Shown here piece by piece: positions 18,333-41,951 of a stretch of DNA of 64,000 nucleotides (its first letter is position 1; the number at the start of each line of letters is the position of its first letter). Made by a program: the position numbers and the translations under genes. The notes below the pieces were generated by a model. That model saw only the letters and a program-made list of their open reading frames with translations. It was not told the origin of the DNA and did no database searches. Location: NCBI RefSeq assembly GCF_030815405.1, contig NZ_JAUSWX010000001.1, forward strand, positions 620,001 to 684,000, in the 5' to 3' direction. This stretch comes from Agromyces albus (lineage in GTDB: Bacteria; Actinomycetota; Actinomycetes; Actinomycetales; Microbacteriaceae).

Positions 18333-18370
18333 CGTTCGTGCGAATCAGGTGTTCCGGGAGACTTGCAATG

Positions 18371-18482: not shown

Positions 18483-18515
18483 CATAATCCGATGAGAATC
18501 ATCGAATCGGTTCGA
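18483..18515 (+). promoter_or_regulatory. lacI promoter -10 and autoregulatory operator
   Basis: CATAAT (18483-18488) is a good -10; no clear -35 is seen. TCGAATCGGTTCGA (18502-18515), one base off the perfect palindrome used at the other three sites, lies between it and the lacI start, so the repressor likely controls itself with a somewhat weaker site. Confidence 0.65.
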
Positions 18516-18532
18516 AGAAGAACGGGACGAGA

Positions 18533-19537: not shown

Positions 19538-19576
19538 CCCGTCGCTCACCTGTCGGCGGGGCATCCGTCGGCTCGG

Positions 19577-19596
19577 CTGTCGAACCGGTTCGACAG
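19577..19596 (+). promoter_or_regulatory. LacI operator of ABC operon
   Basis: CTGTCGAACCGGTTCGACAG is a perfect 20-bp palindrome containing TCGAACCGGTTCGA, 50 bases before the binding-protein gene. No convincing -35/-10 was found next to it. Confidence 0.75.
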
Positions 19597-19645
19597 AACA
19601 CCAGGAATCACTGAACACCACACGCACCATTCAAGGAGGAATACC

Positions 19646-20875: not shown

Positions 20876-20925
20876 TCGGCGGAACACCCGCACCGCCCGC
20901 ACCGCCCCTCGATGGGAGAAGTCAC

Positions 20926-21930: not shown

Positions 21931-22745
21931 CCTCGGCGAGAAGGATCGGGAACACCGTGATCGGCGTGATCTTCACGGCGCTGATGCTCTTCCCGCTCTA
22001 CTGGATGATCAACGTCTCCCTGACGCAGCCGACGGACCTGCGGAAGGACCCGCCGAACCTGTTCCCAGTGAACCCCACCTTCGACGGCTATACGCGGGTG
22101 CTCAGCGAGCAGTTGCCCTACCTCGGCACGAGCCTCGTCATCGGGCTCGGCACGGTCGCCGTGACGCTCCTGTTGTCGGCGCCTGCCGCGTTCGCGCTGG
22201 CGAAGCTCCGGCCCCGCGGCGGCACGGTGCTGAACTTCGTGCTGCTCATCGCCCAGATGATCCCCGGCATCATCATGGCGATGGGCTTCTACCTCATCTT
22301 CCACAGCTGGGGCATCCTCGACACGGTTCCCGGCCTGATCCTCGCCGACTCGACGCTCGCCGTGCCCTTCGGCGTGCTCATCTTCACGGCATTCATGGCG
22401 GGGATCCCCGAGGAGCTGATGTCGGCGGCCAAGATCGACGGCGCCGGCCCGTGGCGCACCTTCCGGTCGATCGTCATGCCCATCAGTCGCAATTCCGTCG
22501 TCACGGTGTCGCTGTTCACGTTCCTGTGGGCGTGGTCCGACTTCATCTTCGCCTCGACGCTCAACCGCGGCGGTGGGTTCCAGCCGATCACGATGGGCAT
22601 CTACAAGTACATCGGCAACAACACGCAGGACTGGAACGCCATCATGGCCACCGCCGTCGTCGCTTCGATTCCGGCGGCCGTGCTGCTCGTCGTCGCACAG
22701 CGCTACGTCGCGGCCGGCGTCACCGCAGGGGCGGTCAAGGACTGA
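21927..22745 (+). CDS. Sugar ABC transporter permease (MalG type)
   Basis: A 272-residue permease with six transmembrane segments and the EAA loop GIPEELMSAAKIDGAGPWRTFRSIVMP. It starts by ATGA overlap with the MalF-type partner and its stop overlaps the start of the GH63-like gene (TGATG), so all four genes are one tightly coupled operon. Energy must come from a shared ATPase encoded elsewhere, as with MsiK in actinobacteria. Confidence 0.92.
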   Translation: MTSARRIGNTVIGVIFTALMLFPLYWMINVSLTQPTDLRKDPPNLFPVNPTFDGYTRVLSEQLPYLGTSLVIGLGTVAVTLLLSAPAAFALAKLRPRGGTVLNFVLLIAQMIPGIIMAMGFYLIFHSWGILDTVPGLILADSTLAVPFGVLIFTAFMAGIPEELMSAAKIDGAGPWRTFRSIVMPISRNSVVTVSLFTFLWAWSDFIFASTLNRGGGFQPITMGIYKYIGNNTQDWNAIMATAVVASIPAAVLLVVAQRYVAAGVTAGAVKD

Positions 22746-24517: not shown

Positions 24518-24536
24518 CAGAGAACGAGCACATGGC

Positions 24537-24566
24537 CGGCCGCGATCTCACCCGGGATCGCGGCCG
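24537..24566 (+). terminator. Terminator of the ABC/GH63 operon
   Basis: CGGCCGCGATC (24537-24547) and GATCGCGGCCG (24556-24566) form an 11-bp GC-rich stem with an 8-base loop 20 bases after the stop. Confidence 0.75.
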
Positions 24567-24627
24567 CCGGCGTGCATCGTTGCCGATAAATCCCAGATCA
24601 GATGCCATTTAACTCTGCGCAACACTC

Positions 24628-24677
24628 TTGACCCCAGGGCGCGGGTCGCGCTAGATTCAGCGATCGAACCGGTTCGA
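24628..24677 (+). promoter_or_regulatory. GH39-like gene promoter with LacI operator
   Basis: TTGACC (24628-24633), 18 bases, and TAGATT (24652-24657) form the clearest sigma-70-type promoter of the window. The perfect palindrome TCGAACCGGTTCGA (24664-24677) covers the expected transcription start, a classic repression layout. Confidence 0.8.
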
Positions 24678-24720
24678 CGCTATGGCGTGGCCGGCCCAAC
24701 GGGATGCGAGGAGGCAGACC

Positions 24721-27700: not shown

Positions 27701-28953
27701 GCACGGCGTCGCTCGCGGTCAACGGCGTGCGGGTGACGGATGTCGCAGCGTCGAGCCGGGTGCCGGTGTTCCTGTTGGGCGGCGTCAACAAGGTCGTGCT
27801 CACGGGCCTTCAGGGATCCGCGCTCATCGACCGCGTCGGTGTCGGCTCGTCGAACGACGTGCTCGCCACGCAGCGCTACGAGGCGGAGGACGGCGTTCTC
27901 GCCGGCACGGCGCAGGTCACCCCGTTCTCACTGGCGTCCGGTGGCTCGGCGGTCACGGGCGTCGGCGGTGATCCCGGCAACGGCAACACCCTGACGTTCG
28001 ACGACGTCGTGGTCGCGAAGGACGGGACGTACGCGCTCACCTTCGGCTACTCCAACGAGGAGCAGTCGCCGGCGTCGCACTACAACCCCGACCCGCTCGC
28101 ACGTCACGCCGACGTCACGATCAACGGGGAGTCGCATCGGGTCTGGTTCCCGCACTCGTTCCACAAGAACAACTTCTGGGAGCTCAGCGTTCCGGTCGAG
28201 CTCGCGGCGGGATCGAACACCATCGTGATCTCGTCGAGCGAGCTGCCGAACTTCGACGGCGAGACGTACATCTCGGAGACGTTCCCCGATGTGCTGCTCC
28301 GATCGCAGCTGGCGCCGAACCTGGACTGGATCTCCGTGACGCCGTTCACGGCGACGGCTCCGGCGGCACCGGATGCCCCGACCGCCGCCAAGGCGTCGTC
28401 GACGTCGATCGCGGTGCACTGGGCGGCTCCGGGCGATGACGGCGGAAGCGCAATCACCGGCTACCGCGTGTACGAGATCGGCGGAGCCGCGCCGGTGTGC
28501 GAGGTCGCGGCGACCGTGACCGACTGCACCGTCGAGGGACTCGCGCTCGGGAGCACCCACGGATACCAGGTGGCGGCAGTCAACGCCGTGGGCGAGGGCC
28601 CGCGTTCCGAGACCTCCGCGGTGGTGACGCTGCCCGAGGTCCCCGATGACGACGGCGCCGTCACGGTGCCCGCCAAGGCGGTGCTGTCGGCGAGCAACGG
28701 CCCGAAGGACGGCACCTTCACGATCGACATGAGGCTGAAGAAGGGCGAGAACGGGTCGCTGTTCAAGCTCTATGAGAACGGCGTGCTCGTGTCGACGAAG
28801 GTGTTGACCCCGTCGAGCCCGAACCCGCAGTCGGCTTCGGTCGACATCTCGGGCCTGCGGAGCGGCGTGTACCAGTACGTCGGCGTCCTCGTGAACTCGA
28901 AGGGCCAGACCGAGACGAAGCCGCTGAAGGTCACGGTGTCGACCGGGAACTGA
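24721..28953 (+). CDS. Secreted GH39-like multi-module glycosidase
   Basis: A 1410-residue secreted protein. ATG 24721 follows GAGGAGG and gives a signal peptide ending near ASAAAAS; the ATG at 24682 is rejected. Order: LamG-type module (45-265), Big_4-like Ig domain (270-343), a TIM-barrel catalytic domain (about 345-640), a beta-sandwich (660-775), three CBM6/35-like repeats each opening with YEAE (782-925, 937-1045, 1051-1215), a fibronectin III domain (1213-1300) and a C-terminal beta-domain (1315-1410). The putative acid/base is Glu474 in VPFNEPEG and the nucleophile Glu590 in ININEYAF, 116 residues apart as in GH39. Bifidobacterial GH39 enzymes release disaccharides from gum arabic, and such a role fits the context, but the family assignment is by motif only. 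It is under the LacI operator and ends before a repeat and a terminator. Confidence 0.82.
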   Translation: MNPSDRRSGAVRRAGMGMGVTVALIGSGLALGAASAAAASDIPDGHQVVHYAFDDAVGSGVVADSSGNNRNATLVNPATATSVDGTDGTKALGLPGGASNAAVAYVDLPASILQGRTDLTVSTRVNWTSSNAAWQWMYALGTNSTRYLFSTPRNGDGLLRSAITTNGGGANENIVTGSAVLPSGEWKTLTVTLDTTADRLTSYLDGVAIGSVTTPITASSLLTTTTRSGYIGKSFYPDPYFAGAVDDFAVYDIALTPEQVGGLVASVPTITGVADDTLEARTAVGTAPALPATTLAHYSDGYDRPASVVWDAVDPSSYAQRGTFVVNGVAAGQAVTATVTVFVPNEITVDLASDTGAFHGGASGTLYGVYGEDIPSDNLLEGIDLRTVSTKAQDGPQHPGADALEVVKPLADATDGDVYIYMTDIHRGFPYEWEGSTPAEKMSIYSEKLAKQVDQVLELPAEYQDNIVFVPFNEPEGNMFGTGTWSYNRVSWLNNPTDFFAAWDSSYRLIKDKLPTARIAGPNTSVLYSQVKGFMQHTVAENTVPEVITWHELSNPAQVRSSVAKYRAWETEVFAGTAFEGTSLPININEYAFNYHTSVPGQMIQWISAIEESKVDADIAYWNIDGNLSDSAVEANRGNGQWWLLNAYAQMSGHTVAVTPPSPNTSYTLQGVATLDEDKRQSRVIIGGAAGNASLAVTNVPESVFGSSVHALIREIPWTGQLGDSAEPEVIAEADLPVAGGAVDLGFGGALPQLKESSAYEVILTPGGHSTSPAVAPKLWAASYEAENAAHTGSVYFRNGPEGTPSDVSKFYTSGQYNVGGLRTGSDTVLDFEVTVPQDGTYDLSVLASSLNTFGSVAEQGPTNVFLRVDGGAEQELFLTLGYKWVVWDHTDTTVDLTAGTHTISLAAQSLDGVGATKGDVLIDKIDVSLANPDAAPIYEAEYADLHGTQPSYDHDGASGSGAVALDEGDSATFWVYARDDAPATLDVQTLGGGTASLAVNGVRVTDVAASSRVPVFLLGGVNKVVLTGLQGSALIDRVGVGSSNDVLATQRYEAEDGVLAGTAQVTPFSLASGGSAVTGVGGDPGNGNTLTFDDVVVAKDGTYALTFGYSNEEQSPASHYNPDPLARHADVTINGESHRVWFPHSFHKNNFWELSVPVELAAGSNTIVISSSELPNFDGETYISETFPDVLLRSQLAPNLDWISVTPFTATAPAAPDAPTAAKASSTSIAVHWAAPGDDGGSAITGYRVYEIGGAAPVCEVAATVTDCTVEGLALGSTHGYQVAAVNAVGEGPRSETSAVVTLPEVPDDDGAVTVPAKAVLSASNGPKDGTFTIDMRLKKGENGSLFKLYENGVLVSTKVLTPSSPNPQSASVDISGLRSGVYQYVGVLVNSKGQTETKPLKVTVSTGN

Positions 28954-28971
28954 CGCGCGAGCCGTGTGGCC

Positions 28972-29062
28972 CCTGTTACCGGATTCGGGGATCCTCGCGA
29001 CACTCCGGCACCAAGCGCCGACGCACGGCGTGTCGGAGCAAATCCCCGAATCCGGTGACAGG
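28972..29062. repeat. 91-bp nested inverted repeat, possible MITE/REP
   Basis: Outer arms of 21 bp (28972-28992 and 29042-29062) match with one mismatch; the left arm begins CCTGTTACCGGATTCGGGG. Inside, CTCCGGCAC (29003-29011) pairs with GTGTCGGAG (29030-29038) with one G-T. The element is separate from the terminator that follows it and lies between two transcription units. It looks like a small palindromic interspersed element; whether it is repeated elsewhere cannot be seen here. Confidence 0.5.
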
Positions 29063-29072
29063 AAAGCGGCGG

Positions 29073-29099
29073 GGCCCGTGGTCATGATGACCACGGGCC
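29073..29099 (+). terminator. Terminator hairpin after the GH39-like gene
   Basis: GGCCCGTGGTCA (29073-29084) and TGACCACGGGCC (29088-29099) make a perfect 12-bp stem with a 3-base loop. Confidence 0.7.
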
Positions 29100-29118
29100 T
29101 CGCTGTCGTGTCGTGCCC

Positions 29119-29178
29119 TTCCGAATGTTGACGTCAACATGTACAGTCGACCCCGAGCGTGTTGACGTCAACACGCTC
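29119..29178 (+). promoter_or_regulatory. GH30 promoter with two LacI-type operators
   Basis: The palindrome TGTTGACGTCAACA occurs twice: inside a perfect 16-bp site at 29125-29140 and a perfect 24-bp site at 29155-29178. A candidate promoter TTCCGA (29119-29124), 17 bases, TACAGT (29142-29147) has the first site exactly in its spacer and the second just downstream, suggesting strong cooperative repression by a LacI-family protein not encoded in the window. Confidence 0.7.
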
Positions 29179-29215
29179 GCCCACCACCTTCCAACGGCGA
29201 AAGAGGTCGACGTCG

Positions 29216-32200
29216 ATGACGATGTCTCGTGGTACACGACTCACCGCGCTCCTGACAGGAGCAACACTCACCAGTGCATTGCTCGCGGTCCCGATCGGCG
29301 CGGCGACTCCGGCCGCCGCCGTCGACGGCACCACGATCACCCCGAACCCCGCCTATCAGGGTGAGGCGTTCGAGGGGTGGGGCACCAGCCTCGTCTGGTT
29401 CGCGAATGCCACGGGCAACTACCCCGAGGAACTGCGCGAGGAGCTCTACCAGGCGGTCTTCGGTGAAGACGGCCTCGACCTCAACATCGCGCGCTACAAC
29501 ATCGGCGGCGGCAACGCCTCCGACGTGCAGGACTACTTGCGGCCGGGCGGCGCCGTCGAGGGCTGGTGGGCGCCCAACGCCGACGGCGACTCCGGCACCT
29601 ACGGCGGTGTCTCCACGAAGTACGCCGACCGCAACGCACTCCTCGCGGCATGGGATGCCGACAACCCCGCGTCCTACGACTGGTCGGCCGACGAGACGCA
29701 GCGCTGGTGGGTCGAGCGGCTCGCCGCCGAGGGCCAGATCACGCATTGGGAGACGTTCGCCAACTCGGCGCCGTACTTCATGACCGAGAGCGGCTACGTC
29801 TCGGGCGGCTTCAACTCCTCTGCCGAACAGCTGAAGCCTGCCGCCGAGGCGCAGTTCGCGAAGTACCTCGTGAACGTCACGGAGCACATCGAAGACGAAT
29901 ACGGGATCGAGGTCGACACCCTCGATCCCTTCAACGAGCCGAACACCGGCTATTGGGGCACGACCCTGAGCAACGGCAAGCCCGTCGGCGGGCGCCAGGA
30001 GGGGATGCACATGGGGCCGGCCCGTCGGGTCGCCCTCATCGACGACGTGCGCGCCGCGCTCGACGACGCGGCAGCCACGACCGAGGCCGGGCTCTCGGCG
30101 ATGGACGAGACGAACCCGGGCATCTTCGCGACGAACTGGGCAGGTTACCCCGCCGCCACGCGCGACAAGGTCGACCGCATGAACGTGCACACCTACGGCA
30201 CGTCGGGCCGGCTCGCGGTGCGCGACCTCGCGAAGCAGGCCGACACCGACCTCTGGATGAGCGAGATCGAGGGCAACTGGGTCAGCGGTTACAACCCCGT
30301 CAACATCGAGAACGGCCTCGGCATCGCCGGCCGCATCATGGACGACCTGCGTGAGCTCGAGCCCAAGGCCTGGGTGCTGTGGCAGCCCGTCGAAGATCTC
30401 TACAACATGGAGCCGCAGGGCGAGAACCTGAACTGGGGATCGATCTTCATCGACCTCGACTGCCAGCCGTATGAAGAGGCCGAGGGCACCGTCTGGAAGT
30501 CCGCTCGCCGCGTCGCCGACGCGGGCGGCAACTCTGCCGCGGTCGCACCGTGCGGCGTCGAGATCAACTCGAAGTTCAACACGATCCGCAACTTCACGAA
30601 GTTCATTCAAGAGGGCGACCACCTGATCGCGATCGACGACGTCTCGAGCACGGCGGCCGTGCGGGCCGACGGCACGGGCGCCACGATCGTGCACCGCAAC
30701 ACCTCGGCATCCGAGCGCCAGGTCACGATCGACCTCTCCCGCTTCGGTGACATCGCCGAGGGCGCCACGGTCACTCCGGTCGTCACCACGCAAGCCGAAT
30801 CTGCGGATGCCCCGACCTCCAACGCACTCGTCGAGGGCGCTACCGTCGCGATCGACCGCACGGCGCGCACCGCCACCGTGACGGTGCCGGCCAAGTCGGT
30901 CACGACGTTCGTGATCGACGGCGTCTCCGGCGTCGCGGCGGATGCCCCGGCGCTCGTCGACGGGCACCGCTACCAGCTCGTCGGCACGCAGAGCGGCAAG
31001 GCGTTCACCGCCGGCGGATCCACGACGGCGACGTCGATCACGGGTCTCACGACGGATGCCGCGAAGGCCGCCAAGCAGGTCTGGACGGTGCACGAGGTCG
31101 CTGCTGGAGAGCGCGAGGCGACGAAACGCGTCGTGCTCGAGGCATCCGACGGCCGTGTGCTCGGCGCCACGAGCGCGGGCACCGACCTCCGCCAGGTGGC
31201 CCCGGATGCCGCGGCGCTCGACCCAGCCACTCGCTGGATCGTGAGCACGACCGACGGCCGCCGCTACACGCTCGTGAACGAGAAGCTCGCGCTCTCGCTC
31301 GACGTGAACGGCCAGTCCACCGCCGAAGGCGCCGGAGTCGGCGTCTACGGCTCGAACGGCGGCAGTAACCAGTCATGGGCGCCGCGCGATCTCGCGCCGC
31401 TCGCCGACCAGACGGTCGCGGCACGCACGCTCGTGGGTGTGCCACCCGTGCTGCCAGAGACGATCGTGCCGCGCTACTCGTGGGGCGCAGGGGCACCGGT
31501 CGCCGTCACGTGGCAGCTGCCGGACGACGCGGCATGGGCCGAGAGCGGTCGGGTCGAGGTGCCCGGCACCTTGACCGACATCTTCGGGCAGGCCATCGAG
31601 GTCACCGCGCTCGTCGACGTCGGCGGGCTCACGGCCACCGATCCCGTCTCGATCACCGTGGCCGAGGGTGCATCGCTCAGCGGCGTGCAGTCCGAAGCCC
31701 CGGCAACCGTGCCCGCTCGCGTGGGTGCATCGGAGAACGCCTTCGACGTACCCGTGGTGTGGGACTGGACCGGGGTTTCCGCCGATCAGTTCGCGTCGGT
31801 CGGCGTCGTGCACGTCGCCGGCGTCGCGACCGCCGACGGAGCAGAGCTGCCCGCGCAGCTCGCGGTGCTCGTGACCGAGGGGACGCTGCGCAACTTCAAC
31901 CCCGATGCCGGCACCACAGCCTCGGCGAGTTCGACCGAGTCGGGCTACCCCGTCGACCGCACGCGAAACGGCGACATCGGCGACAAGGGCTGGTCGAACT
32001 GGGTGTCGAGCAACAAGCCGACCCAGAGCACGTTGACCTACCAGTACGCCGCCGCCCACCAGGTCGAGCGCGTCGCGGTGCACTTCTACCGCGACGGCAC
32101 GACGAGCTGGGCGCAGACCATGAAGGTCGAGGTGCGCGGTGCGAACGGCGTGTGGGCTCCCGCCCCGGGCTGGGAGACCGCGCAGCCGGTCGTGTCGCCG

Positions 32201-32869
32201 GCCGACGGCAGCGCCCCGGTCGTGGTCGCGGAGTTCCCGCCGATCACCGCCACGGGCGTGCGAGTGGTGATGAACGCCTACGCGAACACGCACCTCATCG
32301 TCTCCGAGGTGCAGGTGTTCGAGTCGGCGGAGTCGCCCGCGGCCGTCAGCGACCTGGCGGCGCTCCGGCTCGACGGCGCGCTCATCGACGGCTTCGACGC
32401 GGCGACGACCGAGTACGAGCTCGATGTCGACGGCGGCCGCCTGCCGCTCGTCGACGCGATCGCCGTGGACTCGGCCGCGAGCGTGCGGATCACCCAGCCG
32501 ACCACGGCGAACGGCGGCGTCGCCACCATCGTCGTGACCTCGGCGGATGGCTCGACCGAGAGCCGGTACACGGTCACGATCCGGCGCCACGCCGTGATCG
32601 CCGACCTCCAGATCGTCGAGCGGCCGCGCGTCGCGTCGCCCGCGCATGCCACCGCGACGATCGATCCGGGCGACGGCGAGATCACCTGGCAGTGGTTCCT
32701 GAACGGCGAGCCGATCGACGGCGCCACCGGGCAGAGCTTCACGCCCGAGACGAACGACGCCGGCAAGGAGCTCAGCGTGCGCGTCACGGTCGCGGCCGAC
32801 GGCGTCGAGGGTGCGTCTGCTGAGACCGAGCGCCAGCGCGTCGTCTCGCTGCATTCGCGCCAGCCCTGA
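29216..32869 (+). CDS. Secreted GH30 galactanase-like multi-module enzyme
   Basis: A 1217-residue secreted enzyme. ATG 29216 follows GAAAGAGG and starts a signal peptide ending near PAAAVDG. The catalytic domain (about 40-560, barrel plus beta-sandwich) resembles GH30 endo-beta-1,6-galactanases: FEGWGTSLVWFAN, acid/base Glu241 in DPFNEPNTG, nucleophile Glu350 in LWMSEIEGNW. Then come a ricin-type lectin/CBM13-like module (581-720), Big_4-type Ig regions (720-880), an F5/8C-type CBM32 (893-1035), a cadherin-like beta-sandwich (1045-1125) and a last Ig-like domain. It would cut the beta-1,6-galactan side chains of type II arabinogalactan outside the cell, feeding the importers. Its double operator sets it apart from the neighbouring regulon. 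Confidence 0.9.
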   Translation: MTMSRGTRLTALLTGATLTSALLAVPIGAATPAAAVDGTTITPNPAYQGEAFEGWGTSLVWFANATGNYPEELREELYQAVFGEDGLDLNIARYNIGGGNASDVQDYLRPGGAVEGWWAPNADGDSGTYGGVSTKYADRNALLAAWDADNPASYDWSADETQRWWVERLAAEGQITHWETFANSAPYFMTESGYVSGGFNSSAEQLKPAAEAQFAKYLVNVTEHIEDEYGIEVDTLDPFNEPNTGYWGTTLSNGKPVGGRQEGMHMGPARRVALIDDVRAALDDAAATTEAGLSAMDETNPGIFATNWAGYPAATRDKVDRMNVHTYGTSGRLAVRDLAKQADTDLWMSEIEGNWVSGYNPVNIENGLGIAGRIMDDLRELEPKAWVLWQPVEDLYNMEPQGENLNWGSIFIDLDCQPYEEAEGTVWKSARRVADAGGNSAAVAPCGVEINSKFNTIRNFTKFIQEGDHLIAIDDVSSTAAVRADGTGATIVHRNTSASERQVTIDLSRFGDIAEGATVTPVVTTQAESADAPTSNALVEGATVAIDRTARTATVTVPAKSVTTFVIDGVSGVAADAPALVDGHRYQLVGTQSGKAFTAGGSTTATSITGLTTDAAKAAKQVWTVHEVAAGEREATKRVVLEASDGRVLGATSAGTDLRQVAPDAAALDPATRWIVSTTDGRRYTLVNEKLALSLDVNGQSTAEGAGVGVYGSNGGSNQSWAPRDLAPLADQTVAARTLVGVPPVLPETIVPRYSWGAGAPVAVTWQLPDDAAWAESGRVEVPGTLTDIFGQAIEVTALVDVGGLTATDPVSITVAEGASLSGVQSEAPATVPARVGASENAFDVPVVWDWTGVSADQFASVGVVHVAGVATADGAELPAQLAVLVTEGTLRNFNPDAGTTASASSTESGYPVDRTRNGDIGDKGWSNWVSSNKPTQSTLTYQYAAAHQVERVAVHFYRDGTTSWAQTMKVEVRGANGVWAPAPGWETAQPVVSPADGSAPVVVAEFPPITATGVRVVMNAYANTHLIVSEVQVFESAESPAAVSDLAALRLDGALIDGFDAATTEYELDVDGGRLPLVDAIAVDSAASVRITQPTTANGGVATIVVTSADGSTESRYTVTIRRHAVIADLQIVERPRVASPAHATATIDPGDGEITWQWFLNGEPIDGATGQSFTPETNDAGKELSVRVTVAADGVEGASAETERQRVVSLHSRQP

Positions 32870-32964: not shown

Positions 32965-34017
32965 TCAGTAGCGGCTCGCGAGCACGCGCTCCGCCTCACG
33001 CTCCGTGTCAGTCGTGTTGTTCACGAGCCCGCGGGAACCCCGGAGCTTCGCCTCGATGTGCTCGCCGATCGAGATCGGACCGTAGAGCTCCGTCTCGCCC
33101 TCGGCGACGCACCCGGGGAGCGTCGTGATCACCGCGTCGACGTTGCCGTCGAAGAAGAACGCGGCGGAGCGGCGCCGCTTGATTCGTCCGTCGATCACGG
33201 GCGGCTTCACGCGATGCAGCGTCGACTTCCAGCGCTCGTTGGTCCACCGGGCCGTGAGGTCGCCGAGGTTCACAAGCAGCGCGCCGGGCAAGGGCGAGAC
33301 GTCGTTCCAGCCGCCGTCGGCGTCGAGCACCTGGAGCCCCTTCACGTCGTCGGCCCAGAGCAGCGTCACGATCCCGAAGTCGGTGTGCTCGCCCATGCCG
33401 ATGAGGTCGCCGTCGAGCTCAACCCGCTCACCGTCAGGCAATGCGTAGTTGTTCATGCGCAGCACGTCGAGCGAGTGGTCGGTGTACGAGTCGAAGTACC
33501 CGGCGGGCAAGCCGAGTGCGTCGGCGAAGACCTGCATCATGACCTTCGCGACGGAGGTGGCGTGCGACATCCAGAGCTCGACGTCGTCTTGGAAGGTGTC
33601 GCTCTCGGCAGGCCAGATGTTCTCGGAGTACATCGCGGGATCGACCTCGACGTGCGGGTAGTCGGCAGCGGTCGCGCCGAGGTTGAAGGCCTCGAAGAAG
33701 TCGTTCATCCGCTCAGCCTTCTCGACGCCGAGGCTGAGGCTGAGCCGCTCCGACTTCGGCGGGCTGTACCCGCGGTTGACGCCGGCGGGCGCCCGGTACT
33801 GCTTCTTCACGTCGAGGGGCAGCTCGAAGAAGCGGTCGCTCGCTCGACCGAGGCGCGCCCAGGCCTCGAGGGGGATCCCGTGCCCGAGGATCTGCATGAA
33901 GCCGACCGTGCGGGCCGCCTCATCGAACTGGCGGGCGACCTGGGCCCGCTCGGCGTCGGTGCCGCCCGCGATGTAGGGGGCGATGTCGATCGCCGGAACA
34001 TGGAATGCAGCTGACAT
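32965..34017 (-). CDS. 2OG-Fe(II) oxygenase, isopenicillin-N-synthase family
   Basis: A 350-residue cytosolic non-haem iron oxygenase. The iron facial triad is His211 and Asp213 (GEHTDFG) with His268 (STLHRVKPP); a downstream Arg-x-Ser (RRRSAAFFFDGN) would hold 2-oxoglutarate. An N-terminal DIOX_N region (VPAIDIAPYI ... ILGHGIP) precedes it. Substrate unknown; many actinobacterial relatives have none assigned. GAAGGAG lies six bases before the ATG. It is divergent from the XRE/cupin regulator across 84 bases, so that protein is its likely regulator. Confidence 0.87.
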   Translation of the reverse strand: MSAAFHVPAIDIAPYIAGGTDAERAQVARQFDEAARTVGFMQILGHGIPLEAWARLGRASDRFFELPLDVKKQYRAPAGVNRGYSPPKSERLSLSLGVEKAERMNDFFEAFNLGATAADYPHVEVDPAMYSENIWPAESDTFQDDVELWMSHATSVAKVMMQVFADALGLPAGYFDSYTDHSLDVLRMNNYALPDGERVELDGDLIGMGEHTDFGIVTLLWADDVKGLQVLDADGGWNDVSPLPGALLVNLGDLTARWTNERWKSTLHRVKPPVIDGRIKRRRSAAFFFDGNVDAVITTLPGCVAEGETELYGPISIGEHIEAKLRGSRGLVNNTTDTEREAERVLASRY

Positions 34018-34101
34018 GCCGGTCTCCTTCGGTGTTCGGATATCTTCGTCCTGTTCCCCACGCCCGTTGCCGGACCCGAGTGATAGGTATTGGTTATCAA
34101 T

Positions 34102-34737
34102 ATGGACGAGAATCGAGCTCCTCGGGTGAACACCGTGTTACAGGATCCGGATGCCGCAGCCGACGTCAGCGCCGCGGTGGGGCGGGCCATCCGGCGTGCC
34201 CGTCAGGCGGCGGGGCTCTCGATGCGGGCCCTCGCGCGCTCGAGCGAGATGAGCCAGCCGTTTCTCAGCCAGGTCGAGAAGGGCGCGACGAGCCCCTCGC
34301 TCTCGAGCCTCTACCGGCTCGCCCACGCGCTCGGACTGCCGCCGAGCGAGCTCATGCCCCCCGTGAGCGCACCCCACGGCGTGTCGGTGCTGCGCCAGGG
34401 GGAGGGGCGCGAGCTCCCGGTCTCCGACGCGCCCGAAGCAGCGAGCGGACGACTCCTCTCCGCGGGCGCCGGTCACGTGCTCGAAGTGGTCGAGTACCGC
34501 GTCGCACCGGGGTCCGACCTCGGCGGCTGGTTCGAATCCGACGGCGAGATGACGGTCTACGTCATCGACGGCGAGATCGAGGTGACGCTCGAGAACGAGG
34601 GCTCCTGGCGGCTCGGAGCCGGCGAGGCGATCAGCCATCCGGCCGACATCCGCCACCGCTGGGCTGCGGTCGGCGAGAGGGAGGCTCGAATCCTGCTCTC
34701 GATCGCGCACACGCGCCCGGCCGCGGCGCGCCAGTAG
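34102..34737 (+). CDS. XRE-family regulator with C-terminal cupin
   Basis: A 211-residue transcription factor: an XRE helix-turn-helix (about 30-85, IRRARQAAGLSMRALARSSEMSQ...SQVEKG) joined to a cupin sensor domain (about 130-205, YVIDGEIEVTLENEGSWRLGAGEAISHP). Such proteins often sense small metabolites and control a nearby catabolic gene. ATG 34102 is preferred over the upstream TTG 34090; no ribosome site is seen, so it may be leaderless. A GATA-N9-TATC inverted repeat (34082-34098) lies directly before the start and may be its operator. The divergent oxygenase is the probable target. Confidence 0.88.
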   Translation: MDENRAPRVNTVLQDPDAAADVSAAVGRAIRRARQAAGLSMRALARSSEMSQPFLSQVEKGATSPSLSSLYRLAHALGLPPSELMPPVSAPHGVSVLRQGEGRELPVSDAPEAASGRLLSAGAGHVLEVVEYRVAPGSDLGGWFESDGEMTVYVIDGEIEVTLENEGSWRLGAGEAISHPADIRHRWAAVGEREARILLSIAHTRPAAARQ

Positions 34738-34750
34738 GCTGGACCGCGCG

Positions 34751-35896
34751 ATGCGGGAGAGGGGGAGCGGCGTGCGAGCGTTCGATCCCACGGCGATGCG
34801 CGAGGCGAACTCCTCGCTGACCCTCCGGTCGCTCTACCTCGCGAGCGGCCCGGTCACGATGACCGAGCTGAATCGCACGACCGGGCTGTCGCGTCGCACG
34901 ATCGAGCTCATCCTCACCGACCTCGTCACCGAGGGCTGGGTCGAGCCGATCGAACCCGGGCCGGCGACAGGCGCCGGGCGCCCGCCGCGTCTCTACGCCT
35001 TCCGGCCCGAGCACGCCCTCGTCGGGGCGGTGCAGTTCGACACGCACTCGACCGAGGCGCTCGTGGCCGACCTCAGCGGCACCGTGCTCGGTCGCTCCCG
35101 GCGCAAGCTCACGAACTCGACGAACCCCGACCTCACCCTCGCGGAGGCGAGGGCGGCCTTGCTCGCCGCGGTCGACGAGTCCGGCAGGTCACTCGAGGAC
35201 TTCCGGGCAGTCGGCGTGGCGATGGGAGGGGCCGTCGACGACGACGGCACGGTCGTGACCCTCGTCAACGCCCCGCGGTGGGCGGGCGTGCGCGCCGCCG
35301 ATGCGCTCAGTCTTCCGGCCGGCGTGCGCGTCACCATCGACAACGACGCGAACCTCGCGGCGCTCGCCGAGGGTGCGCTCGGCGCGGCGACCGACCACGC
35401 GAGCTTCACGTGGCTGATCGCGGGCAATCGTGCAGGCTCCGGCATCATCATCGACGGACGCATCCATCGAGGCTTCCGGGGAGCGGCCGGCGAGATCGTC
35501 GAGGCGAACCTCTTGGGCACGCGAGCGATGGAGCGCAATCCGTTCGGCCTGCTCACCTCGCCCGATCCGGCCGAACGAGCGGCGGGCGAGGCCATCGTCG
35601 AGGGCGTGCGTCGCGGAGACGCCGAGGCGATCGCCGAGCTCGACGCCTTCGTCGCGCCGTTCGCACAGCTGCTCGCGGTGTTCGCGTGGACCATCGCCCC
35701 GCCGCTCATCGTGCTCGGCGGCGGTCTCGAGGCCGGCGCCGACGTGCTCATTCCGAGCCTGCGCGCCGCCCTCGAGTCGGCCGGTGCACCCGCCATGGAA
35801 CTGCGCGGTTCGGCGCTCGGGCGCGAGGCCATGCTGCAGGGCGCACTGCGCGTCGCGATCATGAGCGTCGAGCACGAGCTCTTCAGCTCCGCCTGA
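34751..35896 (+). CDS. ROK-family transcriptional regulator
   Basis: A 381-residue ROK protein: N-terminal winged helix (about 10-75, TMTELNRTTGLSRRTIELILTDLVTEGWV) and a sugar-kinase-like domain (GVAMGGAVD, TIDNDANLAALAEGALG, GIIIDGRIHRGFRGAAGEI). The usual ROK zinc motif (HxCGxxGC) that should follow GAAGEI is missing; the sequence runs EANLLGTRAMERNPFG instead. It may therefore sense its ligand in a different way or be a diverged regulator. ATG 34751 or GTG 34772 may start it. It stands before the GMC oxidase and sugar importer, which are its probable targets. Confidence 0.88.
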   Translation: MRERGSGVRAFDPTAMREANSSLTLRSLYLASGPVTMTELNRTTGLSRRTIELILTDLVTEGWVEPIEPGPATGAGRPPRLYAFRPEHALVGAVQFDTHSTEALVADLSGTVLGRSRRKLTNSTNPDLTLAEARAALLAAVDESGRSLEDFRAVGVAMGGAVDDDGTVVTLVNAPRWAGVRAADALSLPAGVRVTIDNDANLAALAEGALGAATDHASFTWLIAGNRAGSGIIIDGRIHRGFRGAAGEIVEANLLGTRAMERNPFGLLTSPDPAERAAGEAIVEGVRRGDAEAIAELDAFVAPFAQLLAVFAWTIAPPLIVLGGGLEAGADVLIPSLRAALESAGAPAMELRGSALGREAMLQGALRVAIMSVEHELFSSA

Positions 35897-35955
35897 GCCC
35901 TCGGTCGAGCGCTGCCGGGCCGCTTCCACCCGCTTTCTGCAGGAGATTCGCGATC

Positions 35956-36063
35956 ATGTATGCCGTATGCGGATGCTTGACACGGAATCCCCTGCAGTTC
36001 GCATCCGGCAAGTGCCAGCGGCGACATCCGAGTGAAACATCCCGCAGTTATGCTGCAAAGTAG
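35956..36063 (+). CDS. Possible 35-residue Cys-containing leader ORF
   Basis: ATG 35956 opens a 35-codon frame ending TAG 36061, with AGGAG nine bases or so upstream and 30 bases between its stop and the GMC oxidase start. It has three Cys and several basic residues. It may be a leader peptide, or chance. The rest of 35897-36093 contains an imperfect inverted repeat TGCTGCAAAGTAGCA at 36050-36064, perhaps an operator. Confidence 0.25.
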   Translation: MYAVCGCLTRNPLQFASGKCQRRHPSETSRSYAAK

Positions 36064-36093
36064 CAATACTTCGCCGAGTCTCGGGAGTTCCGA

Positions 36094-37653
36094 ATGTCGC
36101 ACGTTCCACCCCCTGCCGACGTCCTCATCGTGGGCAGCGGCCTCATGGGCGCCGCCGTCGCGCGGATCGTGCGTGAGGGGTCGCCGGGTGCCCGCATCCA
36201 CATGGTCGACGGCGGCGCGCCGATCGGGAGCGCACCGGGCCAGCATCTCCACGACCTGCGGGATGATGCGTTGCGCGGCACCTACATCGAGCAGGCGTCT
36301 CCCGGCATCCAGTCCCTCTACCTCGGCGCCGCCGTCACGCCGGCGGTGAGCGCCGAGCTCCGCAGCGTGTCGCCCGGCATGTACCACCTCTCGTCGTTCG
36401 ATGAGAATGCGGCCGGGATGCCCGCGAGCGCCTTCGCGTGGAACGCGGGCGGCATGGGGGTGCACTGGACGGCCGCGACCCCGCGCCCTTGGGGCGACGA
36501 GGTGTTCGCGTACGACGGGCCCGACGCCTGGGCGCGCGACCTCGGCGAGGCCGAGCGGCTGCTCGGCGTGCACGACGCTCCGTTCGGCGTCACGAACGTC
36601 GGCGGCCGCATCCTCCAGGTGCTCGACTCGGTCTTCGGTGCGGTGAGCGCGCCTGGCCGGCATCCGCGCACGATGCCGATGGCGGTGGCGCCGAAGGAGG
36701 ACGGCCGACTGCCGCGCACCGGGCCGAACCGCATCCTTCCGCGCATGGCCGCGCCGAACGGTGACGACTTCACGCTCTCCACTGGCACGCTCGCCGTGGC
36801 GCTCGTGCACGATGGCGCAACGGTGCGCGGCGCCCGGGTGCGTGAGGTCGCAACCGGCGACGAGTACGAGATCGAGGCGGGAGTCACGATCGTCGCGGCC
36901 GACCCCATCCGCACGCCGCAACTGCTCTTCGCCTCGGGCATCAGGCCCGAGGCCCTCGGCCGCCACCTGAACGAGCACGCCTTCCTGACGGGGCAGGTGA
37001 TCGCCGACCTCGAGCGACTCGAGGTCGCGCTCGACGAGATCCCCGACCCCGGACCCGACGAGTGGGTCGCCGGCTCGTACTGGCTGCCGCACAGCGGACC
37101 CACGCAACCCTTCCATGGGCAGATCATGGACCGGCTCTATTTCGACGCGACGGGCGCTCGGCTCGCGTACTCGGTGGGCCTCGCGCTCTATGTGCCGACC
37201 GAGATCAACCCTGAGAACCGGCTGGTCTTCGATGACACGAAACCGGATGTCGCGGGCCTGCCGCGAATCACGGTGCGGTTCACGCACTCCGAGGCCGACC
37301 TGGCCCTTATCGAACAGGCGCGCGCGTCGCAACGGGCCGCCGGGGAGACGCTCGGCGACTTCGACCCCGAGCGCGACTCGGCCCTGCTTCCGCCGGGCTC
37401 CTCACTGCACTACACCGGCACGGCGCGATCGGGTGCGACCGATGACGGCACCTCCGTCTGCGACTCCGTAGGGCGCGTGTGGGGGTTCTCGAATCTCTAT
37501 CTCGCGGGCGGCGCCACCGTGCCGACGGCCGTTGTCGGCAACTCCACGCTCACCGGCATGGTGACCGCCGTGCGGGCCGGCCGTGCGGTCGTCGGTCAGC
37601 TCAGCGGAGGCCGCGTCGATGGTCACGCCGCGGCGCTGAATATTTCTAGGTAG
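36094..37653 (+). CDS. GMC flavoprotein, glycoside 3-oxidase/pyranose oxidase-like
   Basis: A 519-residue FAD enzyme of the GMC family. The dinucleotide site is VLIVGSGLMGAAVA (residues 10-23). GGMGVHWTAATPRPW matches the pyranose-oxidase flavin motif (STHWTCATP), keeping the His that binds FAD covalently in fungal pyranose 2-oxidase. Catalytic His439 (SSLHYTGT) and Asn483 (VGNSTLTG) are 44 residues apart, as recalled for the Arthrobacter-type glycoside 3-oxidases. No signal peptide, so it acts inside the cell. Family knowledge points to oxidation of a sugar or glycoside at C3 (or C2). Together with the ABC importer and the TIM-barrel enzyme downstream it resembles the actinobacterial C-/O-glycoside pathway; the substrate is inference. 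Confidence 0.85.
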   Translation: MSHVPPPADVLIVGSGLMGAAVARIVREGSPGARIHMVDGGAPIGSAPGQHLHDLRDDALRGTYIEQASPGIQSLYLGAAVTPAVSAELRSVSPGMYHLSSFDENAAGMPASAFAWNAGGMGVHWTAATPRPWGDEVFAYDGPDAWARDLGEAERLLGVHDAPFGVTNVGGRILQVLDSVFGAVSAPGRHPRTMPMAVAPKEDGRLPRTGPNRILPRMAAPNGDDFTLSTGTLAVALVHDGATVRGARVREVATGDEYEIEAGVTIVAADPIRTPQLLFASGIRPEALGRHLNEHAFLTGQVIADLERLEVALDEIPDPGPDEWVAGSYWLPHSGPTQPFHGQIMDRLYFDATGARLAYSVGLALYVPTEINPENRLVFDDTKPDVAGLPRITVRFTHSEADLALIEQARASQRAAGETLGDFDPERDSALLPPGSSLHYTGTARSGATDDGTSVCDSVGRVWGFSNLYLAGGATVPTAVVGNSTLTGMVTAVRAGRAVVGQLSGGRVDGHAAALNISR

Positions 37654-37882
37654 TAACAAAACTGCACAAGCACGTTACCGAGCCGTAAACTCTCCCGCGT
37701 GAACCCACTGCGGGCGGGCTATCCCTCTACTCTCAGGGAACAGGCCAGCCAAATCAGCATCCTCGATCACAGCATCGAGTGCTTCCATCAAGATTAGCGA
37801 TAACGAAACATCCCCCCAGAACCGCCGGATAGCTCCAACTTCAGAACCGCACCGCTCTTCCTTGCCCCCGAAAGGAATCACC

Positions 37883-39187
37883 ATGTTCACCACCTCACGA
37901 GCGCGACGCCGGGCACTCGCCGTCGCAGCGCCGGCACTCGCCGCCGCGCTCCTCCTCAGCGGCTGCGGACGCGGCGATGGCGCCGCCGACGCCGCGGCCG
38001 ACATCGAGATCGACGACTCGCCCGCTACCGGATCGCTCAGCCTCTGGATCGGCTCCGGCGAAGCCGATGCTCTAGAGGGCTTCCTCGACGACTTCGCGGC
38101 AGAGAACCCCGACGTCGAGCTCGAGCTCACGAACGTGCCATCCGACTCGCTCGACACGAAGCTCACCACCGCGATCGCCTCCGGGGAGGTGCCCGACCTC
38201 ACGATGCTCTACTCGCAGACGCAGAGCACGATGCTCGCAACGGGGGGCTTCGCCCCGGTGCCCGACGGGCTCGTGGACAGCGAGGCGTTCTTCGAGCCCG
38301 CCTACGAGGGCACGCTCGTCGACGGCGTCTCGCACGCGGTGCCCTGGTACGCCTACGCGAACGTCTGGTACTACCGAAAAGACGTCGTCGAGGCCGCCGG
38401 AGCCACGCCGCCCACAACGTGGGAGGAGACGAGCGCCTTCGCAGAGCAGCTGACGGCGGCGGGTCATCCGATGCCCCTCGGACTCGACGTCGGGTACGAC
38501 GCGTACAGCGCGCAGGCGCTCGATGCCCTCGTGCACCAGAACGACGGCAGCCTGATCAGCGACGACCTCACCACGTGGACGATCGATGACCCCGAGAACG
38601 TCGAGGCGCTCGAGTTCTGGGGCTCGCTCTTCGCCGACGGTGACGCGAGCCCAGACGGCCCGCTCTTCCTCGACACGGTGCCGTGGTTCACGTCGGGCCA
38701 GACCGTCGCCGGGGGCAACGGACCATGGTTCCCCGGGTTCCTCGACGGCGCCAACGGCGAGGGATGGTCTGCCGAGCACCTCGGCGCGATCGTGCCGCCC
38801 GCCGGCCCCGACGGCACGGTCGCGGCGAACTTCGGCGGCGGCAGCCTCGCCGTGCTGAAGGATGCCGAGAACCCCGACGCCGCGTGGAAGCTCGCCCGCT
38901 ACCTCGCCCAGCCCGACGTGCAGGTCGCCTGGTACGAGACCTTCGGCAACCTCCCGACGACGGAAGCCGCATGGGACGAGCCGGTCATCGCCGACGACCC
39001 GCTGCTCGCCCCCGTGCGAGAGGCGCTGCCGCACGCCGTCGCCGTTCCCGCGGTGCCCACCTGGAGTGAGGTCGGCGCGATCATCGGACAGCAGATGGAG
39101 CGGGTCGCCCGCGGCGAGGCATCCGCTGAAGACGTGCTTGCCGAGGCGCAGGCGCAGGCCGAGGCGATCGGCACGGGAGTCGAGTAG
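37883..39187 (+). CDS. Sugar ABC transporter substrate-binding lipoprotein
   Basis: A 434-residue binding lipoprotein; GAAAGGA lies seven bases before ATG 37883, and the signal peptide ends in LLLSGC. Family-1 solute-binding features are LWIGSGEADALEGFLDDFAAENPDVEL and SHAVPWYAYANVWYYRKDV. It heads an operon with two permeases and an isomerase/epimerase. The 229-base gap before it (37654-37882) is AT-richer than its surroundings and holds a -10-like GATAAC at 37799-37804 within TTAGCGATAA; no clear terminator of the GMC gene is seen, so read-through is possible. The ligand is probably a glycoside or sugar used by the GMC oxidase. Confidence 0.92.
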   Translation: MFTTSRARRRALAVAAPALAAALLLSGCGRGDGAADAAADIEIDDSPATGSLSLWIGSGEADALEGFLDDFAAENPDVELELTNVPSDSLDTKLTTAIASGEVPDLTMLYSQTQSTMLATGGFAPVPDGLVDSEAFFEPAYEGTLVDGVSHAVPWYAYANVWYYRKDVVEAAGATPPTTWEETSAFAEQLTAAGHPMPLGLDVGYDAYSAQALDALVHQNDGSLISDDLTTWTIDDPENVEALEFWGSLFADGDASPDGPLFLDTVPWFTSGQTVAGGNGPWFPGFLDGANGEGWSAEHLGAIVPPAGPDGTVAANFGGGSLAVLKDAENPDAAWKLARYLAQPDVQVAWYETFGNLPTTEAAWDEPVIADDPLLAPVREALPHAVAVPAVPTWSEVGAIIGQQMERVARGEASAEDVLAEAQAQAEAIGTGVE

Positions 39188-39190
39188 CCG

Positions 39191-40135
39191 ATGGCCATCG
39201 AGACCACGTCGGCGGGGGTGGCGGCCCTGAGCCGCCCCCTCCGCTGGGGCGTCCTCCGGCGATTGTCGCCGGGGCCCACGGGCGTCGCCTGGCTGTTCGT
39301 GACGCCGTTCCTCGTGATCTTCGCCGTGTTCACAGCAGTGCCGGCCGTCATGGCCGTCACCCTCACGATGACCGACATCGGCGTGGCCGACCTGCGCGAC
39401 CCGCTCGGCGTGAACTTCGTCTTCCTCGACAACTTCCAGACGGTGCTTACCGCCCCCGCGTTCCTTCGCTCGGCGCTCAACACGGTGATCTACGTGGGGA
39501 TCGGTGTGCCGGTCACCATGGCGATCGGCTTCCTGCTCGCGCTCGCGCTCGACAGCGGCATCCGTCGGGCTCGCCCGGTGTTCAGGGCCGTCATCTACCT
39601 GCCAGTGATCGCGAACATCGTCGCGGCCGCGATCGTGTGGCAATACGCCTTCACGCTCAACGGACCGATCAACAGCTTCCTCGCCGATCTCGGGATCGCC
39701 GGCCCGAACTGGCTCGGCACGCCCACCACGGCCATGTTCGTCGTGCTGCTGCTCACCATCTGGAGAACGACCGGCACGTGCATGGTGCTCTTCCTCGCGG
39801 GCCTGCAGGCGGTGCCCGAGGAGGTGCACGAAGCGGCATCCCTCGACGGCGCCGGCTACTGGCGGCGTGTCTTCCAGATGACCCTGCCGCTGTTGCGCCC
39901 GACGACCCTCCTCGTGACCGTGCTGATGAGCGTGATGTTCCTCAACATCTTCGACGAGCCGTTCCTCCTGACCGAGGGCGGGCCGCTGGGCTCGACCAAG
40001 TCGGTCGCGCAATGGGTCTACGAGCAGTTCGGGTTCGGCAACATCTCCAACGCCATGACCGGCTCGATCGTGCTGCTCCTCGGGGTGCTCATCGTGTGCG
40101 TCGTCCAACTCCGAGTGCTGAGGCCGAAGCAATGA
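39191..40135 (+). CDS. Sugar ABC transporter permease (MalF type)
   Basis: A 314-residue permease starting three bases after the binding-protein stop. Six transmembrane segments follow a 30-residue cytosolic tail; the EAA loop reads EVHEAASLDGAGYWRRVFQMTLP. Its TGA overlaps the next ATG (ATGA). Confidence 0.92.
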   Translation: MAIETTSAGVAALSRPLRWGVLRRLSPGPTGVAWLFVTPFLVIFAVFTAVPAVMAVTLTMTDIGVADLRDPLGVNFVFLDNFQTVLTAPAFLRSALNTVIYVGIGVPVTMAIGFLLALALDSGIRRARPVFRAVIYLPVIANIVAAAIVWQYAFTLNGPINSFLADLGIAGPNWLGTPTTAMFVVLLLTIWRTTGTCMVLFLAGLQAVPEEVHEAASLDGAGYWRRVFQMTLPLLRPTTLLVTVLMSVMFLNIFDEPFLLTEGGPLGSTKSVAQWVYEQFGFGNISNAMTGSIVLLLGVLIVCVVQLRVLRPKQ

Positions 40136-40962
40136 ACCGTCTCCACGTGGTGCGGGCATCGGGGCTCTACCTGGTGCTCTGCCTCGTCAGCGCCCTCATG
40201 CTGCTGCCGTTCGCCTGGGTGGTCTTCGGCGCGTTCAAGACCCAGGGCGAGTTCACCGCGAACCCGGGCGGCTGGCTTCCCGAGAGCTTTGCGAACCTGC
40301 AGAACTTCGTCGTGCTCTTCACCGAGGAGGGATTCGGCGGAATCCTCGTGAACAGCATCATCGTCTCGGCGGTGACCGTGCTCGCCAACGTGCTGTTCTG
40401 CTCGATGGCCGGCTATGCGCTCGCGAAGCTGCCGTTCCGCGGCCGTTCGCTCCTGATGGGGTGCGTGCTCGTCGCGATGACCGTGCCGTACGTCGCGCTG
40501 TTCGTGCCGCAGTTCCTCATCATCGTGCAGCTCGGGCTCGTGAACACCCTCGCCGGCATCATCGCGCCGATGCTCGTGATGCCGCTCGGCGTGTTCATCA
40601 TGCGCCAGTTCGCACTCTCGATCCCCGACGAGCTCCTCGAGGCGGCACGCATCGACGGCGCGGGGGAGTTCGGGATCTTCTTCCGCATCTTCCTGCCGCT
40701 CCTCGGCCCAGCGATCGCCACCGTGTCGATCTTCACGTTCCTCGCGTCGTGGAACTTCTTCCTCTGGCCACTCGTGGTGGCGCAGACCGAAGACGTGTTC
40801 ACGCTGCCCGTCGCCCTCGCGATCGCCTCGCAGCAGGCGAACACCACCGTCTACGGGTTGCTCCTCGCCGGTGCGATCGTCGTGCTGCTGCCGGTGCTCA
40901 TCCTCTTCCTGTTCCTCCAGCGGTACTTCATCCAGGGCATCGCGACGGCAGGACTCAAATGA
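40132..40962 (+). CDS. Sugar ABC transporter permease (MalG type)
   Basis: A 276-residue permease with six transmembrane segments; EAA loop DELLEAARIDGAGEFGIFFRIFLP. Both ends overlap neighbours by ATGA, so translation is coupled from the first permease through to the TIM-barrel enzyme. The ATPase is not encoded here. Confidence 0.92.
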   Translation: MNRLHVVRASGLYLVLCLVSALMLLPFAWVVFGAFKTQGEFTANPGGWLPESFANLQNFVVLFTEEGFGGILVNSIIVSAVTVLANVLFCSMAGYALAKLPFRGRSLLMGCVLVAMTVPYVALFVPQFLIIVQLGLVNTLAGIIAPMLVMPLGVFIMRQFALSIPDELLEAARIDGAGEFGIFFRIFLPLLGPAIATVSIFTFLASWNFFLWPLVVAQTEDVFTLPVALAIASQQANTTVYGLLLAGAIVVLLPVLILFLFLQRYFIQGIATAGLK

Positions 40963-41951
40963 CCATGGCATCGGATGCCGCAGAGAGAGGACCTCACTTG
41001 ACGATCCCGCGTGCGCAGTTCGCGCTGAACCCCATCCAGTGGATCAACATCAAGGAGAACCCCGACGACCCGTCGAGCGCCGATCTCTGGCTCTTCGCCG
41101 ACCCCGCGTTCCGCGCCGACTACCCGGCCGTGCTCGGCAAGGTGAAGGCGGGCGGGTTCGACAGCGTGATGATGCAGGTGCTCGACACGCAGACGCTGCA
41201 GAACTACGAGCGGATGATCCGCGAGGCGGGCCTGCGCCTGGCCCCCGGCTACTGCCACGTCGGCCTGCCCGAGGATCACGGCCACGCGTTCGCGCCGGGC
41301 AGCCCGGAGTGGGTGCGCTGGTTCGACGGGATCCGCCGCGCTGCCGAGGAGTCGAACTACTTCGGACTCGAGACGGTCTTCCTCGCGCCCGAGATGTCGT
41401 GGGATGGCGCCGCACGCACGGTCACGAGCTCGGCGGTGGGCGCGGCCTTCGACGAGGGCCGACTCGACCGGGTGGTCGACGTGCTCGCCGAAGCCGCCCG
41501 GATCCTCACCGACGAGGGTGTGCGGCCCGGACTGCACAACCACGTCGGCACGTGGGTCGAGACCGAGTACGAGATCGACTACGTGCTCGACCAGATCGAC
41601 GAGGCTCTCCTCGGCGCGTCGTTCGACGTGGGCCATCTCGCCTGGGCGGGCGTCGACCCCGTCACGATGCTCGCCAAGCACCGCGATCGCCTCGTCGACG
41701 TGCACGTGAAAGACCTCGACCTCGCTGTCGCCGCCGCGAGCCGTGCGCAGCCGACCGACTATCGCTCGACCGTCGATCGTGGGCTCTTCCTCGAGCCGGG
41801 CCTCGGCGACCTCGACCTCGACGGATGCCTCGGCGCTCTGCCCGACGGCTTCGGCGGCTGGGTCATCATCGAGGTCGACCGGGCCTCGATGGATCCCGAC
41901 GAGAGCGTGCACGTGAGTCGCCGCTGGGTCGAGCGGGTCTTCCCGGCCTGA
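40959..41951 (+). CDS. TIM-barrel sugar isomerase/epimerase family enzyme
   Basis: A 330-residue cytosolic protein of the AP-endonuclease-2 fold (xylose isomerase-like TIM barrel). Metal ligands seem intact: Glu in FLAPEMSWDG, Asp/His in FDVGHLAWAG, His in VDVHVKDLD and Glu in VIIEVDRAS. Members epimerise or isomerise keto-sugars, or split 3-keto-glycosides. It is the last gene of the importer operon, joined by ATGA, which ties its substrate to the imported compound. With the GMC oxidase upstream, action on a 3-keto sugar or 3-keto glycoside is the best guess. It ends 10 bases before the convergent sensor kinase gene. Confidence 0.85.
   Translation: MTMASDAAERGPHLTIPRAQFALNPIQWINIKENPDDPSSADLWLFADPAFRADYPAVLGKVKAGGFDSVMMQVLDTQTLQNYERMIREAGLRLAPGYCHVGLPEDHGHAFAPGSPEWVRWFDGIRRAAEESNYFGLETVFLAPEMSWDGAARTVTSSAVGAAFDEGRLDRVVDVLAEAARILTDEGVRPGLHNHVGTWVETEYEIDYVLDQIDEALLGASFDVGHLAWAGVDPVTMLAKHRDRLVDVHVKDLDLAVAAASRAQPTDYRSTVDRGLFLEPGLGDLDLDGCLGALPDGFGGWVIIEVDRASMDPDESVHVSRRWVERVFPA

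Follow-up and report, generated by a model that had tools for sequence, protein, structure and literature searches.

How a bacterium might dismantle glycosides without hydrolyzing them is the question raised by a six-gene module of the soil actinobacterium Agromyces albus. The module lies in a 64,000-nucleotide stretch of DNA, hereafter the window (G000:C1:620001-684000), within a genome assembled as a single 4.27-Mb contig. Its genes, all on the + strand, encode in order a ROK regulator, a GMC flavoprotein, the substrate-binding protein and two permeases of an ATP-binding cassette (ABC) importer, and a xylose-isomerase-type TIM-barrel enzyme, hereafter the TIM; a preliminary description had already located each gene correctly. 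On balance, if only narrowly, the module is best read as a cytosolic, non-hydrolytic glycoside-degradation system that couples import, oxidation at C3, and β-elimination by the TIM. A CUT1-type importer would take up the intact glycoside, and the GMC flavoprotein would oxidize C3 of the sugar with O2, yielding H2O2. The TIM, predicted to hold a divalent metal on His193, Asp223, His249, and Glu305 with His195 as the base, would then remove the C2 proton so that the aglycone is expelled, in chemistry akin to the loss of water from a cyclic ketone by IolE. Hydration and reduction of the resulting glycal would fall to enzymes from another part of the contig, where a hydratase homologue and a Gfo/Idh protein are encoded at 315-324 kb, and the ROK protein would switch the module.

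The linkage of the TIM gene to the GMC gene is far beyond chance. A TIM of at least 59% identity occurs in eight of 199 genomes of the family, and in all eight a GMC match lies 60 to 3308 bases away. When a 22-sequence TIM alignment was scanned against genome contigs, 59 loci were recovered: 45 with a TIM of at least 51% identity (L053-L097), the nearest named ones being from Agromyces (A. albus DSM 15934, 94%), and 14 distant loci (L098-L111) that were kept out of the 45. Gene counts at the 45 loci (tblastn at 1e-20) are 41 for the GMC flavoprotein, 41 for permease 2, 40 for permease 1, 39 for the substrate-binding protein, 22 for the ROK regulator, and 16 for a second ROK type. Extra genes encode a Gfo/Idh protein (c7, 16 loci), a deaminase (c8, 15 loci), a hydratase homologue (c11, 14 loci), and a carboxylesterase (c16, 8 loci). 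Two of the four loci without a GMC gene, L090 and L095, lie near a contig edge. Among the distant loci, one of 14 (L098) has a GMC gene. In a class-level sample of 345 genomes, five, the window's included, match the GMC protein with an E-value no higher than 1e-60, and 11 have a TIM match at 1e-20, exceeding 39% identity only in the window's own genome. In the other Agromyces genomes sampled (G079, G142, G194, G405, G481), the GMC protein found no match and no TIM match exceeded 33%, and the module is therefore patchy even within the genus.

The flavoprotein gene (36094..37653, +; PF05199, 5.1e-14) encodes a putative clade III type glycoside 3-oxidase, of the group that joins pyranose oxidases (POx) and C-glycoside oxidases (CGOx). 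Both motifs named in the preliminary description are exact, the HWT motif at residues 124-126 and the His439/Asn483 pair, and the structure comparison it called for places the protein nearest, in sequence and in fold, to bacterial C-glycoside and glycoside 3-oxidases. The score against the pyranose-oxidase model TIGR02462 is 4.3e-38, under the model cut-off. The clade III flavin motif has the consensus GVHW followed by Thr (PMC10807413), and the window protein has GVHWT together with the catalytic His-Asn pair. Insertion-1, which takes the place of the arm and head domains in clade III, is also present, as the stretch aligns to residues 60-93 of 7qf8 without a large gap; the AlphaFold2 model is of low confidence there, and this assignment rests on sequence. 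The substrate loop RLYFDATGA agrees with the clade III consensus R(P/T)(F/Y)VDEDG(E/R) at four of nine positions, and TIM-linked relatives carry loops such as TVFVDEEH and TTYVDATG. Microbacterium-type GMC proteins (40-44% identity) have GVHW in those inspected and a loop that fits no published clade consensus.

In the tree, Streptomyces canus protein P0207 falls within the 28-row group that holds the window protein (support 95/93), and the clade IV-like rows L036, L037, and L116 fall outside that group (100/100). P0207 corresponds to ScPOx by residue numbering (H438, N482, M344-P355) rather than by accession. The tree includes seven of 19 added family and class loci that gave a usable frame, the other 12, G385's among them, having been dropped; three short frames (L070, L073, L079) and L048, which has no gene calls, were likewise left out. 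No signal peptide was seen on reading of the protein, for which no predictor was used, so cytoplasmic action after import is expected. Import and oxidation of a glycoside are both likely.

The TIM gene (40959..41951, +; PF01261, 5.8e-22) may begin at TTG 40998, because most aligned homologues start near that point: 13 of 22 start at residue 14 or 15 of the window protein, and six more lie 1-6 residues off. Of the ATGA overlaps described earlier, the one between the two permease genes is real and an ATGA is present at 40959-40962, but the TIM gene may not start there. IolE is the nearest structure to the TIM by both sequence and fold, and it alone stands out in the fold search. His193, His195, Asp223, His249, and Glu305 are invariant in 22 sequences, and the structure model places them within strands or at strand ends. 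They match the HxH-D-H-E set of AtOGE (His132/His134/Asp163/His189/Glu233; PMC10628242) by pattern rather than by superposition. The earlier identification of a TIM-barrel enzyme holds, the enzyme being better described as IolE-like than as of the CarC/DgpC type. No structure labelled as a CarBC or DgpBC α-subunit appears among the 18 TIM profile hits with E up to 1, an absence from a list that is not proof. β-Elimination by the TIM is more likely than not.

Three main layouts frame these two genes in relatives. Agromyces, the window included, has ROK-GMC-SBP-P1-P2-TIM, where SBP is the substrate-binding protein and P1 and P2 are the permeases. Rathayibacter, Agreia, Promicromonospora, some Microbacterium, and others have SBP-P1-P2-(carboxylesterase)-ROK-GMC-(deaminase)-TIM. 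Many Microbacterium, and Leifsonia without c11, have ROK2 / Gfo-GMC-SBP-P1-P2-TIM-(second TIM)-(c11). Loci L075, L080, and L096 fall outside all three. The second TIM of the tandem pairs (L078, L079, L082, L084, L088, L093) is 48-52% identical to the window TIM, and such pairs possibly serve two linkage types or two steps. c11 matches the hydratase of PDB 8ro4 at 2.9e-35, and the best model for c7 is levoglucosan dehydrogenase, under cut-off; by analogy the two would correspond to the enzymes that hydrate and reduce the product in the Agrobacterium pathway (PMC10628242). The window's genome has its own copies of c11 (85-88% identity, 322496-323497) and c7 (65-66%, 315386-316471), which are grouped together with a separate importer, and we infer that these serve the window module in trans. 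This set belongs to a second oxidative-type operon (L132:6061-15501, about 314-324 kb) that encodes a Gfo/Idh protein, an RbsA-like ATPase, two permeases, a binding protein, a psicose-epimerase-like TIM, and the hydratase homologue, with a divergent ROK gene. A Streptomyces plasmid carries a TIM homologue of 41% identity within a ROK-Gfo-TIM-Gfo-TIM-ABC set, as if dehydrogenases had replaced the oxidase. G400 and G385, whose GMC proteins are 55-56% identical to the window's, have a broadly similar operon but a different IolE-like TIM (L118:10701-11672 and L119:7111-8082); the one in G400 matches PF01261 at 1.8e-13 and, among structures, IolE alone at E up to 0.1. In the tree, the G400 GMC protein is placed next to that of S. 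canus; the G385 protein is outside the tree set.

An oxidative, non-hydrolytic route, as first proposed, is well supported by comparative genomics, because oxidase, TIM, and importer are conserved together, Gfo dehydrogenases replace the oxidase beside a distant TIM, and c11 occurs at 14 of the 45 loci. Several observations nevertheless weigh against the proposed scheme. The metal residues are common to the TIM and IolE and cannot tell a lyase from a dehydratase. The AtOGE structure 8bvk is reached by the TIM profile only at E 0.11, and in the fold search sugar isomerases and epimerases score as high as the AL1 lyase (Z 23.8) and AtHYD (23.4). The window module carries neither hydratase nor reductase genes. 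L087 and L097 have a TIM but no GMC gene within the available stretch, and in two genomes of the family, G024 and G069, a 43-45% identical TIM occurs while GMC gives no match. For a 39% TIM homologue in Neorhizobium, the gene table, which is incomplete, shows no oxidase beside it. Conversely, G033, G090, and G108 have a GMC protein at 50-57% without this TIM, although genes of AP_endonuc_2 type lie nearby (beside the GMC gene in G033 and G108 and beside the ROK gene in G090; those in G090 and G033 are confirmed by Pfam). Finally, oxidized O-glycosides are reported to be able to break down without an enzyme (PMC12724307).

It is possible, though clearly less probable than elimination by the TIM, that the TIM acts only after cleavage, hydrating, isomerizing, or epimerizing a 3-keto sugar or glycal once the oxidized glycoside has broken spontaneously or through another enzyme. 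At the loci with c11, a closer hydratase homologue, the TIM is still kept, so it is not simply a hydratase; it also has His where two-Glu epimerases presumably carry Glu, which we count against this proposal. A cyclitol pathway, with an inositol-like ring as the substrate of the GMC flavoprotein and the TIM acting as a genuine inosose dehydratase, would account for IolE being the nearest relative in fold and sequence. It is very improbable: the TIM scores 108.5 bits against TIGR04379 (IolE), where the cut-off is 290, the GMC protein belongs with glycoside and pyranose oxidases, and a scan of eight proteins at 32965-41948 brought up no iol-type partner. The TIM was rejected as a genuine IolE on that score and on its near gene partners.

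That the TIM alone splits 3-keto C-glycosides, in a pathway without a CarB/DgpB-type partner, is unlikely. The clade III enzyme ScPOx does prefer the C-glycoside puerarin in vitro (PMC9659204; PMC10807413), at 7.35 U/mg versus 0.045 on glucose (PMC9659204), but the published C-glycoside lyases form their active site between two subunits (PMC8563793), and AtOGE, which likewise lacks a second subunit, is O-specific (PMC10628242). PF19906 (CGDB), the partner subunit in known C-glycoside lyases, has no match in the window's genome in a search that was positive in 14 of the 199 family genomes; a CarBC-like lyase was rejected on this ground, and the C-glycoside part of the original proposal is not supported. 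No C-glycoside deglycosidase appeared among the 50 fold-search matches listed, an observation given no weight here. Across the family, 11 genomes have a GMC protein of at least 42% identity, eight of them with the TIM and one (G045) with PF19906, there on a separate contig near a second GMC gene (38%). Seventeen genomes have GMC proteins of at most 40% only; none has the TIM and 13 have PF19906. Among these 28 GMC-bearing genomes, pairing with the TIM largely alternates with a CarBC-type partner; Fisher values for the alternation overstate the evidence because the genomes are related. The substrate is more likely an O-glycoside, or an N-glycoside, than a C-glycoside. A 3-keto-disaccharide hydrolase (PF06439) was also considered and rejected, both matches in the window's genome being under cut-off.

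A deaminase gene at some loci offers a clue to the aglycone. c8 (203 aa) lies between the GMC and TIM genes at 14 of the 15 loci that carry it; at L097 it is beside the TIM gene on the opposite strand, and GMC is absent. A deaminase of c8 type also directly follows the GMC gene in G400 and G385. c8 keeps HAE and PCxxC motifs and best matches 2g84/4hrq (5.5e-40), the protein NE0047, which has a generic PDB name and which we take to be a guanine deaminase, followed by the true guanine deaminases 1wkq and 1tiy (about 9e-11). The window module lacks c8, and a 61% copy lies elsewhere in the genome beside a different ABC importer. c8 may hint at an amino-heterocyclic aglycone, and an accessory gene is also conceivable. 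A bolder and doubtful extension is that glycosides with such aglycones are degraded by a new oxidative route that natively starts with clade III oxidases of ScPOx type; C3 oxidation and elimination by the IolE-like lyase would be followed by guanine-deaminase-like deamination. Its substrates would be purine- or pyrimidine-type conjugates, such as vicine-like compounds or purine N-glucosides, which would then be cleaved without a hydrolase or phosphorylase.

The remaining genes of the module encode the regulator and the importer. The ROK-family protein (34751..35896, +; PF00480, 2.8e-25, with weak HTH matches) is a probable repressor of the module. The importer comprises an SBP_bac_8/SBP_bac_1 lipoprotein (37883..39187, +; PF13416, 9.2e-35) with a lipobox-like LLLSGC read from the sequence, permease 1 of UgpA/MalF type (39191..40135, +; PF00528, 1.5e-11), and permease 2 of GlcU/UgpE/MalG type (40132..40962, +; PF00528, 9e-22), which overlaps permease 1. 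The motif GAAACATCCC stands 5' of the GMC gene (36034..36043, +), as a possible operator or shared regulatory site, and again 5' of the importer genes (37805..37814, +). These are its only copies in the window, and two or more copies arose in 0 of 100 shuffles, for a motif picked after inspection of the sequence. That the two intergenic regions share one 10-mer is weak on its own, the same occurring in 97 of 2000 mononucleotide shuffles. Three other Agromyces loci conserve the pair, L053 and L054 in full and L055 with one mismatch at the second site. The paired sites suggest common control of oxidase and importer.

Upstream, the module is adjoined by a 2-oxoglutarate (2OG)-Fe(II) oxygenase gene and a divergent XRE-cupin regulator gene (32965-34737). 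The same pair lies beside the module in L053, L054, and Antribacter soli (L094), and the oxygenase is found at four of the 45 TIM loci, at only 26% identity in one. Its 93% identity across families (L094) suggests recent transfer. The earlier remark that no glycoside hydrolase (GH) is present is true of the module itself but not of its surroundings, which include, on the upstream side, a GH30-type gene (29159-32869) and other GH genes. They form part of an island (13464-32866) encoding GH59-type, GH127, MGH1-like, LamG/fn3, and GH30-type proteins and another CUT1-like ABC importer near 19.6-22.7 kb; the island probably targets plant arabinogalactan-like glycans. A long reading frame at about 0.8-5.6 kb is broken by one in-frame TAG at 4899-4901 and is spanned by a weak PF06439-like match, under cut-off.

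The module resembles several known systems in part. CarA/CarBC and PurA/PurBC of soil actinobacteria likewise couple a TIM-barrel enzyme to a GMC oxidase that depends on FAD and comes from the same branch of the superfamily, but CarBC and PurBC are two-subunit DgpBC-type lyases, whereas the candidate here is IolE-like in a genome where PF19906 was not found. ScPOx, of clade III, shares 55.5% identity with the window GMC protein over a 488-column alignment, along with the tree group, the His/Asn pair, and the GVHW motif; the words "operon" and "gene cluster" do not occur in the ScPOx paper (PMC9659204). The Agrobacterium GlycDH-AtOGE-AtHYD-Gfo pathway follows the same proposed logic of oxidation, elimination, hydration, and reduction, shares the HxH-D-H-E pattern between AtOGE and the TIM, and has AtHYD homologues in relatives and in the window's genome; it oxidizes with GlycDH, whereas the window module has a POx/CGOx-type oxidase. 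The 3-keto-β-glucopyranoside-1,2-lyases AL1 and BT1 (8tcd, 8tct) are 18-19% identical to the TIM, with Z scores tied with sugar isomerases. From the inosose dehydratase IolE the TIM differs in its sub-cut-off score and its gene partners.

No description of an IolE-like lyase of this kind, or of this operon, was found in the open-licence PMC literature, judged partly by title. The module varies a known logic of oxidative deglycosylation at the operon level: its oxidase type is known, and its partner enzyme type was not found described. In the literature examined, actinobacterial glycoside oxidases appear mostly in single-enzyme assays on plant phenolic glycosides. One oxidase clade is now tied to an importer, a regulator, and an IolE-like enzyme that are conserved with it. 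Both the lyase step and the natural substrate can therefore be tested directly, with the deaminase gene pointing to a concrete and unexpected substrate class to try. Part of the IolE-like group could thereby gain a second reaction.

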